A stretch of 28,920 nt of DNA from a virus: the IMG/VR virus record IMGVR_UViG_3300012189_000063, positions 1 through 28,920 of that record, one strand, 5' to 3'. The position numbers were made by a program, and so were the translations under genes. Shown piece by piece: positions 2,936 to 25,900 of this stretch. Under the pieces are notes generated by a model. It saw only the letters and a program-made list of their open reading frames with translations, did no database searches and was not told where the DNA came from. Numbering within the stretch: the first letter of the stretch is position 1; every line of letters starts with the position of its first letter.

Positions 2936-3176
2936 TAACACGCTAATGCACCGCGCAGCCAAGGCCTATGCAGAGAGCGAGGCGAGTGATCCATGGGCGT
3001 ATGCGAGAGCGATGACGCATATTGGGAACGGGATTGCAACGTGGGCCAATGCGGATGGGGAGGCTGCGTTCTATAGCGCGGAAGAGGCCAATGAGACACG
3101 CTTGCTTCCTCCTGATAAGGGTGGATATCAAGAGCCTTATCAGGCAAGAGTTTGGCGGAATAGGTTTAAGCCATGA
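2919..3176 (+). CDS. 85-aa early protein of unknown function
   Basis: Not recognised. It starts at the ATG at 2919, with AAAGGA about 7 nt upstream, and reads MVNKLDNTLMHRAAKAYAES with an acidic, alanine-rich helical first half (AMTHIGNGIATWANADGEAAF) and a basic C-terminus (YQARVWRNRFKP). No membrane segment or cysteine motif is present. The stop overlaps the next ATG (ATGA), so the two are translationally coupled. Confidence 0.6.
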   Translation: MVNKLDNTLMHRAAKAYAESEASDPWAYARAMTHIGNGIATWANADGEAAFYSAEEANETRLLPPDKGGYQEPYQARVWRNRFKP

Positions 3177-3388
3177 AGAATCGTTGTTGGAAAGAACCCA
3201 CGATCATTGAGCAGATGAAGGGGAATGCTCAATGCAGGGGAATTCATCTTCGCCAGCCTGTTTGGCATTGGGTGAAGCATGTGAAACCGATCATGCCCAG
3301 GCTATACAAGAGCTATCGAGCATGGCGCAGGGAGGAGGTTAAGGAACAACGCAGGGAGGCGAAGAGATGTACTGGTTCGGGGCAGTGA
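3173..3388 (+). CDS. 71-aa basic early protein
   Basis: Not recognised. It is a strongly basic small protein rich in Arg, Lys and Trp (QPVWHWVKHVKPIMPRLYK, then AWRREEVKEQRREAKR). The start overlaps the preceding stop as ATGA. The composition suggests a nucleic-acid or membrane-surface binder, but nothing specific. Its 3' end contains the ribosome site (GGAGG) of the 28-aa membrane peptide that follows. Confidence 0.5.
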   Translation: MKNRCWKEPTIIEQMKGNAQCRGIHLRQPVWHWVKHVKPIMPRLYKSYRAWRREEVKEQRREAKRCTGSGQ

Positions 3389-3453
3389 CGGATGTGCTGG
3401 GGATTGGGATATTTGTCTATTGGTTGAGCATATCGGCCAAGCCTAAGACTTGA
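3367..3453 (+). CDS. 28-aa single-pass membrane peptide
   Basis: A very short ORF (MYWFGAVTDVLGIGIFVYWL, then SISAKPKT) supported by GGAGG 7 nt before the ATG. It encodes one continuous hydrophobic helix (about residues 2-22) followed by a short polar, lysine-containing tail, consistent with an inner-membrane peptide with the tail inside. Phage early peptides of this size can modulate host membrane proteins; that role is inference. It overlaps the previous gene by 22 nt in another frame. Confidence 0.5.
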   Translation: MYWFGAVTDVLGIGIFVYWLSISAKPKT

Positions 3454-3487
3454 GCTGTGGCCCAACTTTAGTTTTGGCCCAACATTG

Positions 3488-3560
3488 GTTTAGATCCATG
3501 AGCTAAACGCTCTTACGGCTGGCAGAGGGCAACCTCTTACCAGCCATTAGCGGTGAGAGC
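3488..3560 (+). ncRNA. Structured leader RNA (two stem-loops, GCAA tetraloop)
   Basis: Hairpin 1: GTTTAG (3488-3493) pairs with CTAAAC (3503-3508). Directly after it, GCTCTTAC (3509-3516) pairs with GTGAGAGC (3553-3560; 8 pairs, one G-U), enclosing GGCTGG/CCAGCC (3517-3522 / 3540-3545) and AGAGG/CCTCT capped by a GCAA tetraloop (3529-3532). ATTAGCG is an unpaired bulge on the 3' side. There is no U-tract, so it is not an intrinsic terminator. It sits in the 190-nt gap before the gene at 3646, followed by another hairpin, GTCTCT/AGAGAC (3605-3623). It may be a regulatory leader or a free small RNA. Confidence 0.55.
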
Positions 3561-3645
3561 AGAGATCGGGTCAGGGAAGGGTTAGCCCTATGCTGTATTC
3601 GATAGTCTCTCGAACCCAGAGACGTTGATAAAGGATTGTACACCT

Positions 3646-4398
3646 ATGACTGACGTAACGGTTGAACAGAACGAAACAGGCCAAGCGGAAGAGGTCTTTA
3701 AGACTTTCGTCATCCCACTCAAGGGTGGCTGTGGTCACGTGACCTTGGAAGACGCTGATGCAGTTCCACTGGAAATGTATCGGTATATCTTCCAGCAAGG
3801 CTTGGAAACTATCGTGAACTCCGTGGGGATGTCAAAGCTTCTCCCCGGCATCACCAAGCTCGAAGGCATAGACGCCGAGAAGGCCAAAGATGCGGTGCGC
3901 AAACAAGCTCGGGCCAATGTTCAGGATCTCCTGAAGGGCCAAATCAAGCTTAAAGGCGCTCGCAGTGCGGTCAAAGTCGATGGTGCGGTGCAAACCGAGG
4001 CATTGAGGATGGCTAAGGAAATGGTTAAGGATCTTATCCGGCAAAGCAATCAGAAGATCGGAGCGTACAAGGCTTCCGAGATCACGACTGCTGCGAAGGA
4101 TGTGCTTGAGGCTAACCCGGAGCTCATTGCGAAGGCGCAAGCCAATCTCAATGAGCGTGCCGGTGCGGCCAAGACCACGAAGGCTCTTGATCTCAAGGCC
4201 ATGTTTGGTGCAAAGGCTGAGAGCGAAGAGGTGAAGGCCAAGCCGAAGGGGGCTAATCTCAAGAAAGCCCGTGAAGCGAAGGCCAGCGAAGCGAAAGGCT
4301 CTGCGGAAGGTCAGACTCGGGCCAAGCCCAAGGTTGAAACGCAGAAGGTCGCTCCGCGTGCAGGGGTGAAGGAAACCCATCACACGACGGCTCACTAA
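3646..4398 (+). CDS. 250-aa lysine/alanine-rich early protein
   Basis: Unknown function. The ATG at 3646 has AAAGGA 10 nt upstream. The N-terminal half looks globular (VFKTFVIPLKGGCGHVTLED, YRYIFQQGLETIVNSVG). From about residue 165 it becomes highly charged and repetitive in K, A and E (DLKAMFGAKAESEEVKAKPK, then KKAREAKASEAKGSAEGQTR), resembling the disordered tails of histone-like or nucleoid-binding proteins. It stands alone between two structured non-coding regions, so it is probably abundantly and separately regulated. Single-stranded or bulk DNA binding is a guess from composition. Confidence 0.65.
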   Translation: MTDVTVEQNETGQAEEVFKTFVIPLKGGCGHVTLEDADAVPLEMYRYIFQQGLETIVNSVGMSKLLPGITKLEGIDAEKAKDAVRKQARANVQDLLKGQIKLKGARSAVKVDGAVQTEALRMAKEMVKDLIRQSNQKIGAYKASEITTAAKDVLEANPELIAKAQANLNERAGAAKTTKALDLKAMFGAKAESEEVKAKPKGANLKKAREAKASEAKGSAEGQTRAKPKVETQKVAPRAGVKETHHTTAH

Positions 4399-16818: not shown

Positions 16819-17250
16819 ATGCAAAAACCCTTCCAACTCACTGAAGAAATGGCAAAGGAACTCGCCAATGAAGTCTCCTCGCTCACGCTCCAAGGGGATG
16901 AAGCAGCACATGACTCCACTGGAGCGGGGGCTTTCGCGCCACGCTTACGCAGAAGGAATGCCAATGTACAAAATAGCGGAAGCGATGCATCGGGACATCA
17001 AGACAATCCAGCGTTTGGTGAAAGATATCCGCTGGCTTCGCCGGAAGACCCAATCAATCCCAGCCACTACCGCCGCCACCCTAGCGGAATCGAATGCATC
17101 GACATCACCGAGCACATGCTATTCAACCCGGGTAACGCGGTGAAGTATATCTGGCGCTACATGGACAAAGGCGATCCGGTGGAGAACCTGCGAAAGGCCA
17201 TGTGGTATTTGGAGCGGGAGATTTTGAGGTTGACGAGGGCGCCGAGATGA
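16819..17250 (+). CDS. DUF3310 protein (nucleotide-kinase-like), start uncertain
   Basis: Residues about 80 to the end are a clear DUF3310 domain: DPINPSHYRRHPSGIECIDI then TEHMLFNPGNAVKYIWRY and DKGDPVENLRKAMWYLEREI. This family includes the T7 gp1.7 nucleotide kinase and probably serves nucleotide metabolism. The first 75 residues are low-complexity and overlap an out-of-frame HTH gene (16868-17143) that has a better ribosome site. ATG 16819 is the first start after the terminator; 16849 is another choice. Alternatively the domain is reached by a frameshift from the HTH frame. Confidence 0.65.
   Translation: MQKPFQLTEEMAKELANEVSSLTLQGDEAAHDSTGAGAFAPRLRRRNANVQNSGSDASGHQDNPAFGERYPLASPEDPINPSHYRRHPSGIECIDITEHMLFNPGNAVKYIWRYMDKGDPVENLRKAMWYLEREILRLTRAPR
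16868..17143 (+). CDS. Helix-turn-helix protein nested out of frame in the DUF3310 gene
   Basis: The ATG at 16868 has AAAGGA with ideal 8-nt spacing. Residues about 15-55 (TPLERGLSRHAYAEGMPMYK, then IAEAMHRDIKTIQRLVKDIR) make a convincing helix-turn-helix with resolvase-like spacing. After about residue 58 the sequence becomes Ser/Thr rich (TTAATLAESNASTSPSTCYS), clearly the shadow of the DUF3310 domain in the other frame. So either the true product is a short HTH protein with a non-functional tail, or ribosomes shift -1 into the DUF3310 frame to give an HTH-DUF3310 fusion. Confidence 0.55.
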   Translation: MKSPRSRSKGMKQHMTPLERGLSRHAYAEGMPMYKIAEAMHRDIKTIQRLVKDIRWLRRKTQSIPATTAATLAESNASTSPSTCYSTRVTR

Positions 17251-17642
17251 TCAAAGTCTATATCGCCAGTAAACTGAAGTACGCAGAACGCTTTCGAATC
17301 CTTCGTGATGATTGGATAGCCAACAACATTGATCTACACGCAAGGTGGTTTGATCATGCAATCATCGGACAGACTGCGGAGGTTTCGCCAGAGGACCTTC
17401 ATATATTCTGGCTTGTTGATGAGGAGGATGTAAAGACTTCGCAGGCAGTGATTGTCTACGGCAATTCAGACGATAAACTGCGGGGAGCTTTGGTCGAAGC
17501 AGGTATTGCCATTGGTCAGGGTATTCTAACTATCCTAGCCGGTAATTGCCCAGATTTCAGTACATGGCAACATCATCCCTGCGTAGTCCATGCAGGTTCA
17601 CTCGAACACGCAAAGCAAATGATTCTTCGAAGGTTTCGATGA
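17247..17642 (+). CDS. Nucleoside 2-deoxyribosyltransferase-like protein
   Basis: A 131-aa Rossmann-like protein. MIKVYIASKLKYAERFRILR opens like nucleoside 2-deoxyribosyltransferases (VYIASxF). The segment SPEDLHIFWLVDEEDVKTSQ and VIVYGNSDDKLRGALVEAGIAI gives the acidic catalytic-type VE-x-G(I/Y)A motif. The family exchanges or cleaves nucleobases of deoxynucleosides. In phages it may salvage or modify nucleotides, or remove nucleotide signals. ATG 17247 overlaps the DUF3310 stop (ATGA). Substrate unknown. Confidence 0.7.
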   Translation: MIKVYIASKLKYAERFRILRDDWIANNIDLHARWFDHAIIGQTAEVSPEDLHIFWLVDEEDVKTSQAVIVYGNSDDKLRGALVEAGIAIGQGILTILAGNCPDFSTWQHHPCVVHAGSLEHAKQMILRRFR

Positions 17643-18745
17643 GTAAGCCAATCCTCCTCATCGGGGAGCAGCGTGGCGAAGCGGAGGCCCGGATAGACCG
17701 AGCGTTTGTGGGAGCGACTGGAGCTGAGTTGATCCGTATGCTAACCGAAGCCTGTGTGATCCAACTCTCCACTAATGATTCCGCCCACCTTCACAGCTTC
17801 TGGACAACCCGCGATCCCTGGTCCTTGGACAAAATCTGGGAGAACCATCGTGAAACCTTCATCCGCACCAACGTCTTCAACATCTATCCGCCCGGGAACA
17901 AACTCGAATACTTCTGCGGGGGGAAAGCATCCGGCCTTCCCAACTACGCCAAACTACTCAAAGCCGGGTATGTTAGATCTGAATTCGCCCCAGAACTGGA
18001 TCGTCTTGGGGATGAAATCCTTTCTCATGATCCTAATCTCATTGTCTGCTTGGGGAATACTGCTATATGGGCTATGTTGGGGACTACTGGGGTTCGGAAG
18101 CTTCGGGGCACAACCGCTGTTAGCACTCATTGCGTTAGTGGGTATAAGCTTTTGTGCACTTACCATCCTAGCGCTGTTCACCGGCAATGGGAGTTGCGAC
18201 CCACAGTAGTTTCGGATCTCAGCAAAATCAACGATGAAAAGGACACCGCAAATGTCTCACGCCCACCAGTTGAAATCTGGACCGAGCCGACGCTTGAAGA
18301 CATCACTAGCTTCTTCGAAAACCATGTTCGCGGCTGTGAATTGCTTTCTGTCGACATCGAAACGAGCGGCACAAGAATCACTTGCATTGGATTCGCTCCC
18401 AGACCAGACCTTGCACTTGTTATTCCATTCGATGACGAGCGCGCAGAGAGTGGAAGCTATTGGGCTAATGCACAGTCTGAACAACAGTGCTGGAAGCTTA
18501 TACGTTCGGTGCTTGAGAATCCGACGATATGCAAACTCTTCCAAAATGGATTGTACGACATCGCCTTCCTACTGCGGAGCTATCGAATCGGAGTGAGGGG
18601 TGCGGTGCACGATACGATGCTCTTGCATCACGCGTTGCAACCTGAAAGCTTAAAGAGCCTCGGTTTTCTAGGTTCGATCTACACCAACCACGGACCTTGG
18701 AAGAGCGAGCGGAAGCGATCTGATACGGTGAAGAGGGACGCATGA
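17639..18745 (+). CDS. Uracil-DNA glycosylase fused to the first half of a 3'-5' exonuclease
   Basis: A 368-aa protein. Residues 1-200 resemble family-4-type uracil-DNA glycosylases: ILLIGEQRGEAEARIDRAFVG (5-25), VCLGNTAIWAMLG (about 138-150) and LLCTYHPSAVHR (about 172-183). Residues 215-360 are DnaQ-like 3'-5' exonuclease from a family A polymerase: Exo I D240-x-E242 (SVDIET), Exo II QNGLYDIAFLL with N304 and D308, then HDTMLLHHAL and LGFLGSIYTN. The Exo III tyrosine/aspartate is not here; it begins the polymerase gene at 18972. Many phages carry UDG-exo-pol as one chain, so this is a split polymerase. ATG 17639 overlaps the previous stop. Confidence 0.85.
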   Translation: MSKPILLIGEQRGEAEARIDRAFVGATGAELIRMLTEACVIQLSTNDSAHLHSFWTTRDPWSLDKIWENHRETFIRTNVFNIYPPGNKLEYFCGGKASGLPNYAKLLKAGYVRSEFAPELDRLGDEILSHDPNLIVCLGNTAIWAMLGTTGVRKLRGTTAVSTHCVSGYKLLCTYHPSAVHRQWELRPTVVSDLSKINDEKDTANVSRPPVEIWTEPTLEDITSFFENHVRGCELLSVDIETSGTRITCIGFAPRPDLALVIPFDDERAESGSYWANAQSEQQCWKLIRSVLENPTICKLFQNGLYDIAFLLRSYRIGVRGAVHDTMLLHHALQPESLKSLGFLGSIYTNHGPWKSERKRSDTVKRDA

Positions 18746-18972
18746 TAGACCAAATAGAAGCTTATAATAACGAGCGCGATGCTGTCTTGCTCATGGACAA
18801 CCTAGCCGTGTTTATCGACTGGGCCCTATCCAAGAAGCAAACGTTTTCCAACGACCTCGTAGCCGAGATAGCTCGAATGAAGATGATCACGGCCTGTCCT
18901 AAGCTTCCCGAGGAACTGCGTGCTCAAGCTAAACAATGGCTTGAGCAACGTGGGTTTGAGAGTTGGGATTGA
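18742..18972 (+). CDS. 76-aa protein inserted between the two polymerase genes
   Basis: ATG 18742 overlaps the stop of the UDG-exonuclease gene (ATGA), and its stop overlaps the polymerase ATG (TGATG). MIDQIEAYNNERDAVLLMDN, then LVAEIARMKMITACPKLPEE and QAKQWLEQRGFESWD: acidic, helical, unlike any polymerase segment. It splits the exonuclease domain at the linker before Exo III. It could be a bridging subunit, an inhibitor or an inserted gene. No homing-endonuclease or intein motif is present. Confidence 0.65.
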   Translation: MIDQIEAYNNERDAVLLMDNLAVFIDWALSKKQTFSNDLVAEIARMKMITACPKLPEELRAQAKQWLEQRGFESWD

Positions 18973-20525
18973 TGAAGATAATCCACACCAATAAAACAAA
19001 GCCAGAAGACATCAAAAACCAATGGGAGCGAGATCAAATCTACAACGGCCTTGACTGCGCCGTCACCCTCGAGGTCTTTAACACCATTCATCCCCAGCTC
19101 GACGCAACCACCGCCGCAACCTATGCATTCTCCCGCGCTCTGCAAGGCCCGGTTCTCGAAATGCGCTGTCGGGGATCCCTAATCAATGCCAACCGCAAAC
19201 GAGAGGTCATAAATGAATTCCATGATAAAATCGATTATCTCGAACGCAGCCTTTCTCGCATCGTGCTTGACGGTGTTGGCATGCTTTCATTCAGTTGGCG
19301 TAGTTCGAAGCAGGTTATGGAGCTATTTTATAATCATCTTCAAATCCCCATTATCAAGAAACAAGGCCGCCCAACAGCTGATCGCGATGCATTGGAAAAG
19401 GTCCGAGCCTTCACCGTAGCCAAGCCAATTGTGGCGCACCTAATCGCGCTACGAGAGTTGTCCAAGAAAATCGAAGCACTCGAAATGGGAGTAGACAATG
19501 ACGGACGAATGCGAACATCCTACAACATCGCTGGAACAAACACTGGCCGGTTTAGCTCTAGCTTCAGCGAATTTGGCACTGGCGGAAACTTTCAGAACGT
19601 GGAGGAAAGTCTTAGAAGCATATTCATCGCTGATAGAGGGTGCAAGTTCGCCAAGTTCGACGCGAAGAGCGGTGAGAGCTACATCGTCGGAGCAATAGAA
19701 GGGAACCTTTTCAATGACTGGAAATACCTCGACGCTGTCGAATCGGGAGACATTCATACAGCGGTTGCACGGCTTTGCTGGCCTGATCTTGGATGGACTG
19801 GAGACCTCAAGCGAGATAAAGTTATCGCGGAACGGCCATACTACCGTCATTACGATTACCGATTCATGTGTAAGAAGCTCGGACACGGAAGCAACTACGG
19901 AGGCCAACCCCACACCCTCGCCGAGCAAACCAAACTCCCTGAGCGGGTGGTCGCTGGATTCCAGCCAAAGTACTTCACCGCCTTTCCTGCTCACCTTGAG
20001 CGACTCAAATGGACTAATAATCGACTCAGTCGGGTGGGCTGTCTTGAAACTCTTACTGGACGAAAAAGGTGGTTTTTTGGGAGGCGTAGCGATCCGGCGA
20101 CACAGCGGGAGGCTTATGCTTACGATCCCCAGAGCTCCCTCGCCGACATAGTCAACCACGCTATGCTCCGCATTTGGCGAGCCCGAACAGCGAGTGCAGT
20201 GGTTGTTTTCCAAGACCACGATGCGCTTACATACATGTACCCAGAGGAGCGCGAGGACGAGGTCGTTCCTGAACTGCAAAAGGCCTTGGGTGAGGATGTT
20301 ATACTCACCCAAGGTCGAGTAATGCGTATTCCATATGATTGCAAAACGGGATGGAACAAAGGAGAATATTGCTGTGGGGATCGAACCCGACCCGGATGTG
20401 AGCGATGTAACAAACAACAAAACCTCGACGGGCTTAGAGAATGGAAAGGAGGGGATGAACGGACACGCACTCCGCAAGAATCCGAGCTGGATAAACTCCT
20501 TCGTGGACTCAACCGCAAGGCTTGA
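18972..20525 (+). CDS. Family A DNA polymerase (with Exo III, without Exo I/II)
   Basis: A 517-aa replicative polymerase. The N-terminus, RDQIYNGLDCAVTLEV (Y24, D28), is the Exo III motif missing from the upstream gene. Then come NTGRFSSS (189-196), motif A KFDAKSGES (D230, E235), motif B RFMCKKLGHGSNYGG (R297, K301/K302, Y309) and motif C FQDHDALT with H416-D417-A418 in place of the usual HDE. The C-terminus has a cysteine cluster (CCGDRTRPGCERC) that could bind zinc. ATG 18972 follows the 76-aa gene in a TGATG overlap. It must pair with the 17639 product to have proofreading. Confidence 0.92.
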   Translation: MKIIHTNKTKPEDIKNQWERDQIYNGLDCAVTLEVFNTIHPQLDATTAATYAFSRALQGPVLEMRCRGSLINANRKREVINEFHDKIDYLERSLSRIVLDGVGMLSFSWRSSKQVMELFYNHLQIPIIKKQGRPTADRDALEKVRAFTVAKPIVAHLIALRELSKKIEALEMGVDNDGRMRTSYNIAGTNTGRFSSSFSEFGTGGNFQNVEESLRSIFIADRGCKFAKFDAKSGESYIVGAIEGNLFNDWKYLDAVESGDIHTAVARLCWPDLGWTGDLKRDKVIAERPYYRHYDYRFMCKKLGHGSNYGGQPHTLAEQTKLPERVVAGFQPKYFTAFPAHLERLKWTNNRLSRVGCLETLTGRKRWFFGRRSDPATQREAYAYDPQSSLADIVNHAMLRIWRARTASAVVVFQDHDALTYMYPEEREDEVVPELQKALGEDVILTQGRVMRIPYDCKTGWNKGEYCCGDRTRPGCERCNKQQNLDGLREWKGGDERTRTPQESELDKLLRGLNRKA

Positions 20526-21690
20526 GAGCCCGAGAGTGTTCAGGCTCTGGGCAGCGATTAGCGTATTGGGGGCGGCGGTGGAGCAACGGGTTTGGATGAT
20601 TAGCCAATAGAGGAAGGTTTATCCGAATTTGTATTGTGGTTTGGTTGCGCATCCGGGGGTGGGGAAGACGAAGACGATACACACAGCGAGGGATTATTAT
20701 ATGGAATTGGCTGAGCCTAAGTTGGCTCCAACCACCATGACCGCGGCGAGTATGATCAAGGCGTTGAAGGCGAGTGCAAGGACGGTTATGCACATGCCTG
20801 AAGGGACGTTTACTTACAATACAATGTATGTCACCGCAGATGAGCTAACTGCGTTTATGCATAAATACGATGAAGAAGCCGCAGGGGTTATGTCTCACAT
20901 GTACGATGTTAGTGTCTATCGCCGCACTAGGGTCACGGATAACATCGACATCAAGATTGAGCGCCCACAGCTAAACCTCATCATCGGCACCCAGCCATCT
21001 ATGCTGATGAACTACCTCCCAGAACGCGCCTGGGAGCAAGGTTTCTGCTCTCGCACCATATTCGTTTTCTCAGATGAAAGAACCGTTGGCGATGATTTTG
21101 AACAAGTGGATACTGCACTTGATACAGACCTTACTCATGATTTGCTCAGTATCTCTGGGCTTGTGGGAGCGTTCGGGATTACTCCGGAGTATAGAACCGC
21201 GGTTAATAATTGGCGAGCGTTGGGAGAGCCTCCAGTGCCAACCCACCCCAAACTGCTCCACTACTGCACAAGGCGGAGGATGCATCTATACAAGCTCTCC
21301 ATGGTCAGCGCAATCGATCGTTCTGACGTGCTCCTCCTCACCGTCGACGACTTCAACCGTGCATTGACTTGGCTAGTCGAAGCAGAAGCAACCATGCCAG
21401 ACATCTTCAAAGCCGGTGCTGGGAATGCAGATGCTCGAGCGATGGATGAGATCTACCACTTCGCGCTGACCATGGGATCACAACCAATATTCAAAGGTGG
21501 AATTCCCGAGAGGAAGATAATGGATCACGCTAGGCAGTTGGTACCACTACATACTTTAGATCGACTAATGAAGCATATGGAGAACACCGGGTTGCTCGTC
21601 CCCACCACCGCTGCGGATTATAAAACCGGACAACGCAAATGGCGAGCCGCGAATCCGCATATTGAGAAACCCACAGATGGAGAGGTTTAG
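20455..21690 (+). pseudogene. DUF3987-like helicase/primase ATPase interrupted by in-frame TAG
   Basis: One continuous frame from ATG 20455 encodes NPSWINSFVDSTARLESPRV and AAISVLGAAVEQRVWMISQ, then TAG at 20608-20610, then RKVYPNLYCGLVAHPGVGKT (Walker A) and the rest. Later VTADELTAFMHKY (Walker B-like), LNLIIGTQPSML and a winged-helix-like end (LDRLMKHMENTGLLVPT) fit phage DUF3987 ATPases, which often sit beside the polymerase. The sequence on both sides of TAG belongs to the same domain. After the stop no ATG/GTG precedes Walker A (only TTG at 20629), so restart is unlikely. Possible causes: sequencing error, nonsense mutation or readthrough. It overlaps the polymerase end by 71 nt. Confidence 0.75.
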
Positions 21691-22299: not shown

Positions 22300-22947
22300 T
22301 TATAGAGGTTTGTCAAACCACGATACTTCAGCTTCACGTCGAGCGGTTAGCCCGGCGTTAACTACACCCCCAGCGTGGTTATACTGGAGGATGTCTGCTT
22401 TGACAGTATCCCATTTGGCAGCTTTGACAGCCTCGCCAAGGGAAGCGTGTTCCCATCCAGAACCTGCGTTGTAGGTCAGGTCGGTTAGGGCTTGTTGAAT
22501 ACCAATCGGGCTACCCGCTGGGATCACCTGCTCAGCTAGTTTCCAGGCCTTGTCTATCTCCACTGTTAGCCTCGCCTCGGCTTCGGCTTCGGTGATGACC
22601 TCAGCGCTGGATGCGGCTTTGGTGCCATAGCCGATGGAGTATTGTTTATAATCCCAATAAGCTTTGGCTTGAAACCCTTCTTCTTTTTTGATGAAGTTCA
22701 TAAGACCCTGATCAACAACATCAACCGGCTTAGTGCAGACTGGTGCCGGGGAAGGCATTGAAGGTGCGACAGCCTTCCCCGGCTTGGACGCAGTCAGAGG
22801 CGGAGTGGAACCAACTGCCTCCGGAGCCTGCGCCCGAGCGAGTGCGCGATCGGTGACCCCGATCATGCGGATTAGAACGTAGATGAGGGCCAGGGATTGG
22901 ATCGAGAGAGCGCCAATTACCAGGACTAGGACGTATTCATTCATCAT
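22300..22947 (-). CDS. Endolysin: GH24-type lysozyme with N-terminal membrane anchor
   Basis: A 215-aa muramidase-type endolysin that would cut peptidoglycan. The N-terminal helix, VLVLVIGALSIQSLALIYVL (about 6-25), and a 50-residue Pro/Ala linker precede the T4-lysozyme-like domain. E90 (EEGF), D99 (YWDY) and S104 in YSIGYGT occupy the E-D-T triad positions, with Ser for Thr and one residue fewer between D and S. The absence of a cleavable signal suggests a signal-anchor-release or permanently tethered endolysin. The start overlaps the stop of the giant virion protein. A cysteine (C71) in the linker is a possible activity switch. Confidence 0.85.
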   Translation of the reverse strand: MMNEYVLVLVIGALSIQSLALIYVLIRMIGVTDRALARAQAPEAVGSTPPLTASKPGKAVAPSMPSPAPVCTKPVDVVDQGLMNFIKKEEGFQAKAYWDYKQYSIGYGTKAASSAEVITEAEAEARLTVEIDKAWKLAEQVIPAGSPIGIQQALTDLTYNAGSGWEHASLGEAVKAAKWDTVKADILQYNHAGGVVNAGLTARREAEVSWFDKPL

Positions 22948-25900
22948 CGTTCCACTCTCCTCTGAGCTTCGCCATGGGTGATACCGCGAATGACTTCGTT
23001 GAGATTGCGCGGATGCTGTTGGCGGTTGTAGACGTCAAGGCCAAACCGGACCATGTTTCCAATCTCCTTGGGGAACATACCAGTTGCTTCACCAAGGATG
23101 GTGATGACGTCTTGAACAGTCTTGCCTGCGTGTTCGCGGGTCATGGAGCGGGATGGATTGGTGACGTCGCGATAGAGCTTGGCAGCGTCGTGGGCTGCGG
23201 AAGAGAGGAGCCCAACACCAGGATCGTGCGCGGTGACAAGGCCGTGGATGAGGTCACGAGCGTAGAGCACGGAGGAGGCAACTCCACCAGTAGCTGCGCT
23301 GGCAAGGTACGCTGGCCAGGATTCGTTGCGCTGAGTTGCATAGCTGCGAACCGCCTCCTCGATGATCGTTGGCCAGACAACATAGGTCATGAAGTTTGAA
23401 ACGAAGGATGGGAGGTTCCTGGCAGCCTTGGCGAGTTCACCTTCGCGACCGAGTTTATACATGTCGTTGGCTTGATAGGCAAGTTCTAGGCGACGCTGCA
23501 TGGCTGTGCCGAAGAAACCATAGACGGAGGTTAGGAAGCGGTTGAGTTGACCACCGCCAAGGACCGCTGGAGGTTGATTAGTGATCGCGGTGGAGCCATG
23601 GGCTCGACGAACTCCGCGTTCACCTAAGGTCACAGCATCACCGTGGGAGAGCCCTTCGCTGCGCGCTGTGTCGTAGATTGCCAACGCAGTTGGCTTAGCT
23701 GAGACCATATCCGACCACGCAACCCCAGCCGCTCCCCATTGCATCATCTTGGCGCGGAGATTGGAGGTTTGCTCAAACTCATTCTGCTGAGCCCCAAAGG
23801 TATCCTGCCAATGGCGCTCCCGACGTTGAATTTCTTCGAAGTTGGCCATTACGAAATCATGGTCTTGTAGGGCAACTTGGAGAGACTGACCATAAAGCGT
23901 ATGCACAGCGTTGGCATATTGCTTCACATCAACCCCTCCGAACCTCGCACGGAGGAATGGGACAATCCCGGCCTCTTTCATTGACCAAACCCAGGCGGTT
24001 GGGCCGTGCTTGGCGATGGTGCCAATGTTGCCCGCGATGTAGGTGGAGATTATGTTCGCGCGGAATTTCTCAAGGAACGAATTGGCACGGGCCTCGTTGC
24101 GAGAGGCTGAGCCTTCCGCACCTGCGATGCGTTTGAGATAGGGCATGAGACCGTCAGCATATTCCCGACCATAGTATTTGGCAACGTCAGATTGGAATCG
24201 GCGATCGGCGAAGATCTTCTGACTTTCAAGGATCACCTCACGAAAGGCGATGTCGTGTAGCATCTGGCGCATAGAATTGGGAGTCATGTCGTAGCGTAGA
24301 TCCAGCGGATAGATCGCGCCGGTCCGGGATTTGGTGTAGCCATTAGCAGTGGCGGAATGGTAGAAGTCGGTAGAGTTGTAGACATCCTCGCGTTTGCCAA
24401 CGTCTTTTTCATGCCATAGACCTGCATCGTCTTGAGTCCAGAGATTGCGGATCGGGTCTCGCTTGAGTGGGTGATACCAACCCGGGTAGGTGGCCATAGT
24501 CCCATCCGCGAAGGTGACTTCGATTGGCTTGAGGTTGATCTTCTCAAACGGCGCACCAACGATGCGTTCATACATGTTACCGGAGAGCTTGACGTATTTG
24601 GTGAAGATATCGCCGAGCTTCTGGGCCCGATCCCAATCAGCTTTGGTTGAGTTGCGGCCAAGCCATTTCATCGCTGCTTCGGGTTCGATGCCGAATCCAC
24701 CTGCCAGAACACGGAGGTTGGATTCATTCCCAGCGTTGTTGATCATTTGATAGACATGGCCGCGGGTGAACCCAGTCCAGCCACCAGAACCCGAGGAGTT
24801 CGGGTCGAAGGTCAGCGGATCGTTGAATGGAGCGTCGATGAGCTTGCCAGCGTCCTTGGGCCTATCGATTTTGCCAATCAGTTTCGAGGCTTCGCGGAGC
24901 ATAGCGGATTCATGATTGGCTGCTCTAGCAAATGGATAGGAGAACGTCCGGTTGAATATTCCCCAAGGATCATTCCGATCCCAGCGATTGAACATGGTTT
25001 CCTTAGCAGTTAGACCATAGACAACGAGCCGAGGAAACCAAGCGAATGGGCCTGGATCGGCTTTGGATGGGGTTGTACCAAAGGTAGAGAGTTTGTCTCG
25101 CATCTCTTGCTTGATCGTCACCAGATCCCTCGCCTCACCTTCAACATATATCTTCTTCTCATCTCGACCAGCCTTGATTAGCATGTCAACCGCGGATTTG
25201 AAATCCTGGAACTGGGAATTGGTTAGGGTGTCTAGCTTTTGTCTAAACCCAGCGTCTTGGATGAAATCTGCGATTGGCAAATCTCTCTGTCCATTCCATT
25301 CCGCAGTCTTTTCACGTACAAACGCGGCAAGCGTCGACGACGTCTGGCGGCCGATATTCTCTTGCAGATCTGTAAGACCTTGTTTAGTACGATCGAGAGG
25401 ATAACCCACCCGGTTAAGCAGATCATGAACCCAATTAGTGAAAGTGGTTGCGACACTGGCTACCTCTCGTTTGCGGAAGGTCTTGGCGGTGCGGTCAAGG
25501 GCTTTGCGGGAGCGCTCATACTCAAGTGCAAGCTTTGCACCTTCAACAGCATATTGACGGTGCTGCATTAGCCTATAAGCTTTGTCCCACTTGCCCTGAG
25601 CCCCGGCCTCTTCAACCTTCTTGCCGAGTTGAAGAGCGTTTTGAAAGAGCCTGCTGGAGCTTAGCTGACCTACCGGAACATTGCTGATCTTCTCACGAGC
25701 TATGGCTTTGACATTCTCCCGCGTGAGTGGGGTGGTATCGATCCCGGCTTTGAGCGCAAAGGCGAGGGTGTCTTGGTGAACCAGCTTGAGCTGGGTTTCA
25801 CTCAACGCTTGGTCTTTGGCCTCCTCAAGGATATGTGCTTCCCGGTCCCCGAATTCTTGGTTCAGGCGGCGATCGGTTTCAACGTCGATGACTCGATTAA

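Follow-up and report, generated by a model that had tools for sequence, protein, structure and literature searches.

Positions 1-28,920 of the IMG/VR virus record IMGVR_UViG_3300012189_000063 (the whole stretch of 28,920 nucleotides analysed here, called the window) carry a DNA polymerase of family A (Pol I type) that is encoded by two open reading frames (ORFs) instead of one. The cut lies inside the 3'-5' exonuclease domain, between the Exo II and Exo III motifs, and a small gene of 76 amino acids (aa) is situated between the two halves. We regard this locus as very probably a polymerase gene in pieces, with an ancient fission, a proofreading site shared by two chains, a gap that has been invaded again and again, a passenger in the form of the 76-aa gene and an ancestral N-terminal uracil-DNA glycosylase (UDG) domain. 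The features of the locus are the following, conservation being counted over pairs of exonuclease (exo) and polymerase (pol) halves.

17639..18745, plus strand: P0001, front chain of 368 aa, with a family-4-type UDG domain and the Exo I/Exo II part of a 3'-5' exonuclease
17648..18196, plus strand: UDG domain, residues 4-186; pocket residues E10, F23, N78 and H176 present, tested Fe-S cysteine position not Cys
18353..18361, plus strand: Exo I, D239-I-E241, invariant in 176 of 176 pairs
18545..18559, plus strand: Exo II, N303-x3-D307, invariant in 179 of 179 pairs
18731..18739, plus strand: C-terminal KRD codons of the front chain, AAG AGG GAC, a Shine-Dalgarno-like site for the next gene
18742..18972, plus strand: P0002, gap gene of 76 aa, a passenger of no known family, with a ratio of non-synonymous to synonymous substitution rates (dN/dS) of 0.06-0.29
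18972..20525, plus strand: P0003, back chain of 517 aa, with the MKIIHT N-terminal strand, the Exo III helix and a thumb-palm-fingers family-A polymerase
19041..19055, plus strand: Exo III, Y24-NGL-D28, the contribution of the polymerase chain to the proofreading site; its Y and D are invariant in 179 of 179 pairs
19659..19661, plus strand: polymerase motif A aspartate D230, conserved in 171 of 171
19860..19898, plus strand: polymerase motif B (RFMCKKLGHGSNY), R and K conserved in 169 of 169
20217..20222, plus strand: polymerase motif C, H416-D417, H and D in 166 of 166; the E of HDE is A in the window, the next residue being A in 94%
20455..21690, plus strand: DUF3987 primase-like neighbour (PF13148), overlapping the pol half

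The initial annotation of this DNA, made from the sequence alone, had placed Exo I and Exo II on the ORF at 17639-18745 and Exo III on the one at 18972-20525, and the ORFs, Pfam and PHROG_17 all agree with it. Its description of the gene joints is also exact: ATGA at 17639-17642, ATGA again at 18742-18745, on entering the 76-aa gene, and TGATG at 18970-18974, on leaving it. In Pfam, P0001 matches UDG (PF03167, residues 4-186, E-value 6e-13) and DNA_pol_A_exo1 (PF01612, residues 217-344), the latter match stopping at profile position 123 of 173, and P0003 matches DNA_pol_A (PF00476, residues 78-442, E-value 6e-32). PHROG_17 is collinear across both chains (columns 548-787 in P0001 and 803-1232 in P0003), as is the NCBIfam model PRK05755 for PolA (positions 303-422 and 444-868, respectively). 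Of a Pol I type 3'-5' exonuclease the front chain thus holds the first two thirds. P0003, which starts 23 residues ahead of Exo III, includes the polymerase domain in full, and its share of the exonuclease is the Exo III end alone, approximately 45 residues. In the fused relatives described below the glutamate of motif C is replaced by serine.

Relatives were drawn from IMG/VR and from alignment scans, with a separate scan for fused relatives, and their loci are labelled in the style of L001. The IMG/VR relatives of the window have the same cut. Altogether 110 distinct split junctions were collected, nearly all of them from the window's clade, and none of them belongs to a fused polymerase (0/110). 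In addition, approximately 60 more distant loci, down to approximately 40% identity, and the polymerase of Caulobacter phage Kuura are cut at the same place. An assembly error or a random frameshift was rejected, since the 110 distinct junctions carry the same cut; together with the deeper loci they bear out the earlier view of an organised operon. Phages with an unbroken gene were looked for as well as those with the same split, and both a split clade and fused sister phages were found, Microcystis phage Mel-JY34 and ctMlz233 being named examples of the latter. A prophage search, comprising one scan of genome contigs, returned two fragments only, both in metagenome-assembled genomes.

The split clade is monophyletic with support 100 in both trees calculated (204 tips, and 145 tips with two fused outgroups), and the fused or split state changes six times on the 145-tip tree. 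Since the split clade is monophyletic and its relatives and outgroups include fused polymerases, the fused state is most likely ancestral, and the window's split is most likely placed on the stem of its clade. At least four lineages of the fused sister family have split independently at the same spot, each among fused relatives: L311 (support 100), L301 (98), L286 (85) and L308 (84). L260 is perhaps a further independent split at this position. L317 was left out of the count, as its in-frame TAG may be amber recoding; apart from this TAG (at approximately 4967), which coincides with the Exo III break site, its polymerase is fused, and the TAG reflects either such recoding or an incipient split. 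The fused family also has other break sites, namely polymerase motif A in nine rows, including Vibrio phage VS-ABTNL-3, and the UDG-exo linker in L258/L281. In the distant relative L242 (ctLwi270) the polymerase is annotated as two coding sequences, 1727-2986 and 3138-4364, approximately 150 nucleotides (nt) apart.

Both halves probably still form one enzyme, judging from sequence and fold. Across 179 distinct exo/pol pairs the Exo I D/E, the Exo II N/D and the Exo III Y/D are all invariant, although the last two residues sit on a different chain from the others, and the D, R, K, H and D of the polymerase motifs are invariant too (166-171 pairs scored). The evolutionary distances of the exo halves follow those of the pol halves with a correlation of r 0.911, the best of 500 permutations reaching 0.099, and dN/dS is approximately 0.1 for each half. 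The exonuclease part of the front chain matches the fold of EXD2 (6k19; Z 12.6 over 116 residues, root-mean-square deviation (rmsd) 3.5). For the complete enzyme the relative L078, in which stop and restart are in frame, was folded as one covalent read-through chain. The prediction (predicted local distance difference test score (pLDDT) 89.2, predicted template modelling score 0.87) resembles the Klenow structure 1kfs (Z 28.9, rmsd 3.9, 549 of 601 residues) and the Bst polymerase 4dsi (Z 29.8). At the joint, residues 356-366 are disordered and are followed by a short strand, 369-372, the counterpart of the MKIIHT strand with which the pol half of the window begins. The model thus predicts one Klenow-type enzyme, and it speaks for compatibility of the halves rather than for their binding, because the parts were joined covalently and the alignment behind it contained read-throughs and naturally fused homologues. 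The earlier claim that the proofreading site would have to be assembled from two chains agrees with these six motif residues and with the Klenow-like model.

Alternatively, the chains could work apart, the front one as a UDG/nuclease and the back one as a polymerase devoid of exonuclease. The genes are separate and can be translated separately, the front chain alone is predicted to be well folded in AlphaFold (pLDDT 93.1), and phages with exonuclease-less family-A polymerases are known (PMC11348598). However, two independent enzymes would have no need of the Exo III Y and D on all 179 back chains or of Exo I and Exo II on every front chain, the front chain on its own lacks the Exo III carboxylate, and the halves are co-inherited as described above. 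We therefore consider separate functions unlikely.

At 41 of the 110 junctions the gap between the halves is empty (-4 to 6 nt); it is at least 60 nt long in 61% and reaches 1224 nt at most, and its state changes between occupied and empty 33 times on the tree. The adjacent joint between the pol half and the DUF3987 gene is nearly constant (median -37 nt to a conserved motif) and exceeds 150 nt in only 4%. Gap ORFs across all loci fall into approximately 97 similarity clusters, and a family scan of 143 of them revealed DUF7768 (20), HNH_3 (14), Endonuclease_7 (4), LAGLIDADG_3 (2), helix-turn-helix proteins and others. Endonuclease genes are present in approximately 20 related gaps. The gap is an insertion hotspot, used by many small unrelated genes and by endonuclease genes from at least three superfamilies; going by their family membership, these endonucleases would be active and homing.

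The 76-aa gene is a passenger, one among many. P0002 has no Pfam match at cut-off and no PHROG or NCBIfam match, and its family was found only in the window, L002, L004, L011 and L028, always in the exo-pol gap. Among the closest relatives the gap contains nothing (L003, L010), the 76-aa gene (L002, L011), the 76-aa gene with a 25-aa ORF (L004) or an unrelated 140-aa gene (L005), and the halves of the two relatives with empty gaps are 86-94% identical to those of the window. The initial annotation had proposed predicting the 76-aa protein in one complex with the two halves, but a place for it in the enzyme is not supported. A third subunit that the enzyme needs, or an assembly factor bridging the halves, would fit the tight ATGA and TGATG overlaps within the same operon and the purifying selection on the gene (dN/dS as listed above), but such a role is very improbable when 41 of the 110 gaps are empty, two of them in close relatives, when another close relative has a different gene in the gap and when approximately 97 ORF families use the same place.

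Two minor observations concern the surroundings of the gap. Immediately before the exo half lies a gene (window 17202-17642) that resembles, by eye, a gap ORF of L231 (5430-5954) and of L235, so genes of this kind can occur on either flank of the exo half. In L215 and L218 the pol halves are 92% identical and the exo halves only 68%, and both gaps contain an ORF of the HNH cluster; the gap could be a recombination joint there.

Translation seems to be organised around the end of the front chain, which terminates in KRD-x in 76 of the 110 junctions. The tail codons give AAGAGGGAY directly ahead of the next start. The arginine codon of KRD is AGG in 44 of the 76, compared with 8.5% elsewhere in the same genes (binomial 1e-27, uncorrected for relatedness), and a Shine-Dalgarno-like core precedes 59 of 106 following genes vs. 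11% of random positions. By this codon bias and these cores, the tail of the first gene looks like the ribosome-binding site of the gene behind it, whatever that gene is. Of the 69 pol halves behind a filled gap, only 17 have a Shine-Dalgarno-like core of their own, so the pol half is likely to be translationally coupled through the passenger gene.

Phage polymerase genes often contain introns or inteins, and some relatives (L078, L084) have a stop with an in-frame restart, which would suit a gap that is a spliced or bypassed element (a group I or II intron, an intein, a frameshift or a ribosome hop), with a single chain made after all. Group I and II introns were rejected, as Rfam at gathering scores gave no intron match in the window and 11 other loci, and a split intein was rejected, as the chain ends around the joint, approximately 15 and 22 residues, are too short for intein halves. 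Furthermore, gap sizes lie between -4 and 1224 nt, all reading frames occur, the contents are unrelated, and the genes have their own start codons and the Shine-Dalgarno-like tail. Production of one chain is thus hardly credible.

As to its origin, the unbroken gene of the fused sister family and of the outgroups points to a UDG-exo-pol replication polymerase of the Pol I type whose gene very probably broke a single time, far back, in the loop ahead of the Exo III helix and has been handed down as two pieces ever since. The first piece comprises the UDG and the Exo I/Exo II sheet and the second the Exo III helix and the polymerase, both made from one operon, and the chains would then associate, with the Exo III helix filling in the metal site of the exonuclease. 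Most likely the fission would have been caused by a free-standing homing-endonuclease gene inserting into the coding sequence, as in the T4-type genes in pieces. In the sister family HNH genes are located exactly in the break in L258/L281, L295, L303 and L308. Since the break the joint has been a tolerated site of insertion, at which endonuclease genes and many small unrelated ones arrive and disappear.

Several points weigh against this scenario. The gap of the window itself has no endonuclease gene, and the commonest gap family in the deep lineages is DUF7768 (20 of the 143 gap ORFs), which leaves room for a first insertion by some gene other than an endonuclease. Also the two-chain complex is a prediction from sequence and from the covalent read-through fold. 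It is conceivable, and we take it seriously although we tend to doubt it, that the gene was split by a nonsense mutation with restart and that the endonucleases invaded the open joint only later. The splits of L301 and L311 seem to lack an insert or to have a restart codon only, 41 of the 110 junctions are empty, and a review voices the same doubt about gene 43 of phage 25 (PMC2988022). On the other hand, the four HNH-bearing loci or locus pairs mentioned above cluster with sister-family relatives that are fused or split, and loss of a selfish gene would leave an identical empty joint.

Whichever way the gene was broken, it is rather doubtful, but worth stating, that the two pieces persist for the advantage of a UDG-proofreading subunit that can dissociate: fidelity or repair could be tuned by the ratio of the front chain or by its loading, and the gap genes or their translation could be the control point. 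If so, the cut would be no mere tolerated scar but would have produced a regulated Pol I of two subunits, maintained by selection, and the repeated fission at one loop would be explained.

The initial annotation had also drawn attention to the fused UDG. The domain is indeed present on the front chain (PF03167), matching in fold the family-4 UDG 1ui1 (Z 16.5 over 151 residues, rmsd 2.1) as well as UdgX (Z approximately 16). The pocket residues of family 4 (E, F, N and H) are 93-96% conserved, with all four in the window. The tested position of a 4Fe-4S cysteine (the Cys of KCRPP) is never Cys in the compared pairs, and no CxxC was found ahead of motif 1 in the window. The fusion is not special to the split, because the fused sister polymerases carry the same N-terminal UDG and the UDG-exo-pol architecture has been published for phage PaBG (PMC7412058). 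UDG is an ancestral N-terminal domain which stayed on the front piece. It could act as a glycosylase, for which the inspection of template uracil suggested in the initial annotation is one possible role that the pocket would allow but the missing cysteine does not favour, or, as a possible alternative by analogy with vaccinia D4, in holding DNA. In the vaccinia D4 (UDG)-A20-E9 holoenzyme a UDG is physically tied to the viral replicative polymerase, as here, but the polymerase is a different one and D4 is a processivity cofactor (PMC3946371), so the likeness is an analogy only.

SPO1-type polymerases are a textbook case of a polymerase bearing UDG. The SPO1-like phages (phrog_17), PaBG (PMC7412058) and Microcystis phage Mel-JY34 have the same three domains in the same order with homologous sequence, each in one chain; the window agrees with the phrog_17-type polymerase in UDG fold and in the Exo and pol motifs and differs from it in not being a single polypeptide. 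Genes in pieces as such are already known, and the locus closely resembles the T4-type cases: Aeh1 nrdA (mobE), T4 gene 60 (mobA) and gene 43A/43B of Aeromonas phages 25/44RR (PMC2988022). There, too, an essential replication gene is found in two ORFs with an endonuclease gene or another insert at the joint. The split Aeh1 NrdA and phage 25 gp43A/B have been shown to be functional (PMC2988022), their pieces working together, which is a precedent for the cooperation proposed for the halves here. Unlike in those cases, the window's polymerase is of family A and Pol I type, it is cut between Exo II and Exo III so that the proofreading site is shared, and the split is ancient and fixed across a large clade with approximately 97 gap ORF families, the window's own gap being free of endonuclease. 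The PolA of OM43 phages MEP401/402 is also a family-A polymerase in two ORFs with a small ORF of unknown function between them, as in most of that phage group, but there the polymerase domain is cut and the exonuclease is whole, and the authors suspected an intron (PMC10580990).

The only cultured example of the same cut that we found is Caulobacter phage Kuura (OQ067476; PMC9959647), which has two other gap ORFs (98 and 102 aa). Its exo half is annotated as a hypothetical protein, and the passages of the Kuura paper that were searched make no mention of a split (PMC9959647). A cut inside the proofreading site with clade-wide fixation and a changing gap was not found described in the literature searched.

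In a large group of phages, nearly all of them uncultured, the replication polymerase is thus encoded as two separate proteins, with the cut falling within the proofreading site. A shared site of this kind, clade-wide and with at least four independent arrivals, is a natural test of how a Pol I exonuclease tolerates cutting and of whether this alters fidelity. The 110 junctions and approximately 97 gap ORF families also constitute a well-sampled record of the aftermath of a broken gene, whose joint offers selfish endonucleases and passengers a place to settle, with the adjacent joint remaining closed. The consequences for annotation are immediate, given the label of the front half in the cultured phage.

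Some other features of the window were noticed. The DUF3987 gene has an in-frame stop at 20608-20610 in the window and is intact in the near-identical L002 as well as in L003 and L005. A 1889-aa ORF on the minus strand (22944-28613) has no Pfam match. The ORF at 6729-8078 has a TROVE (Ro60-like) domain (PF05731, E-value 2e-14), and a tRNA-Gln(ttg) gene is located at 9258-9332, approximately 1.2 kb downstream of it, which makes the pair a candidate for a phage Ro-type module.

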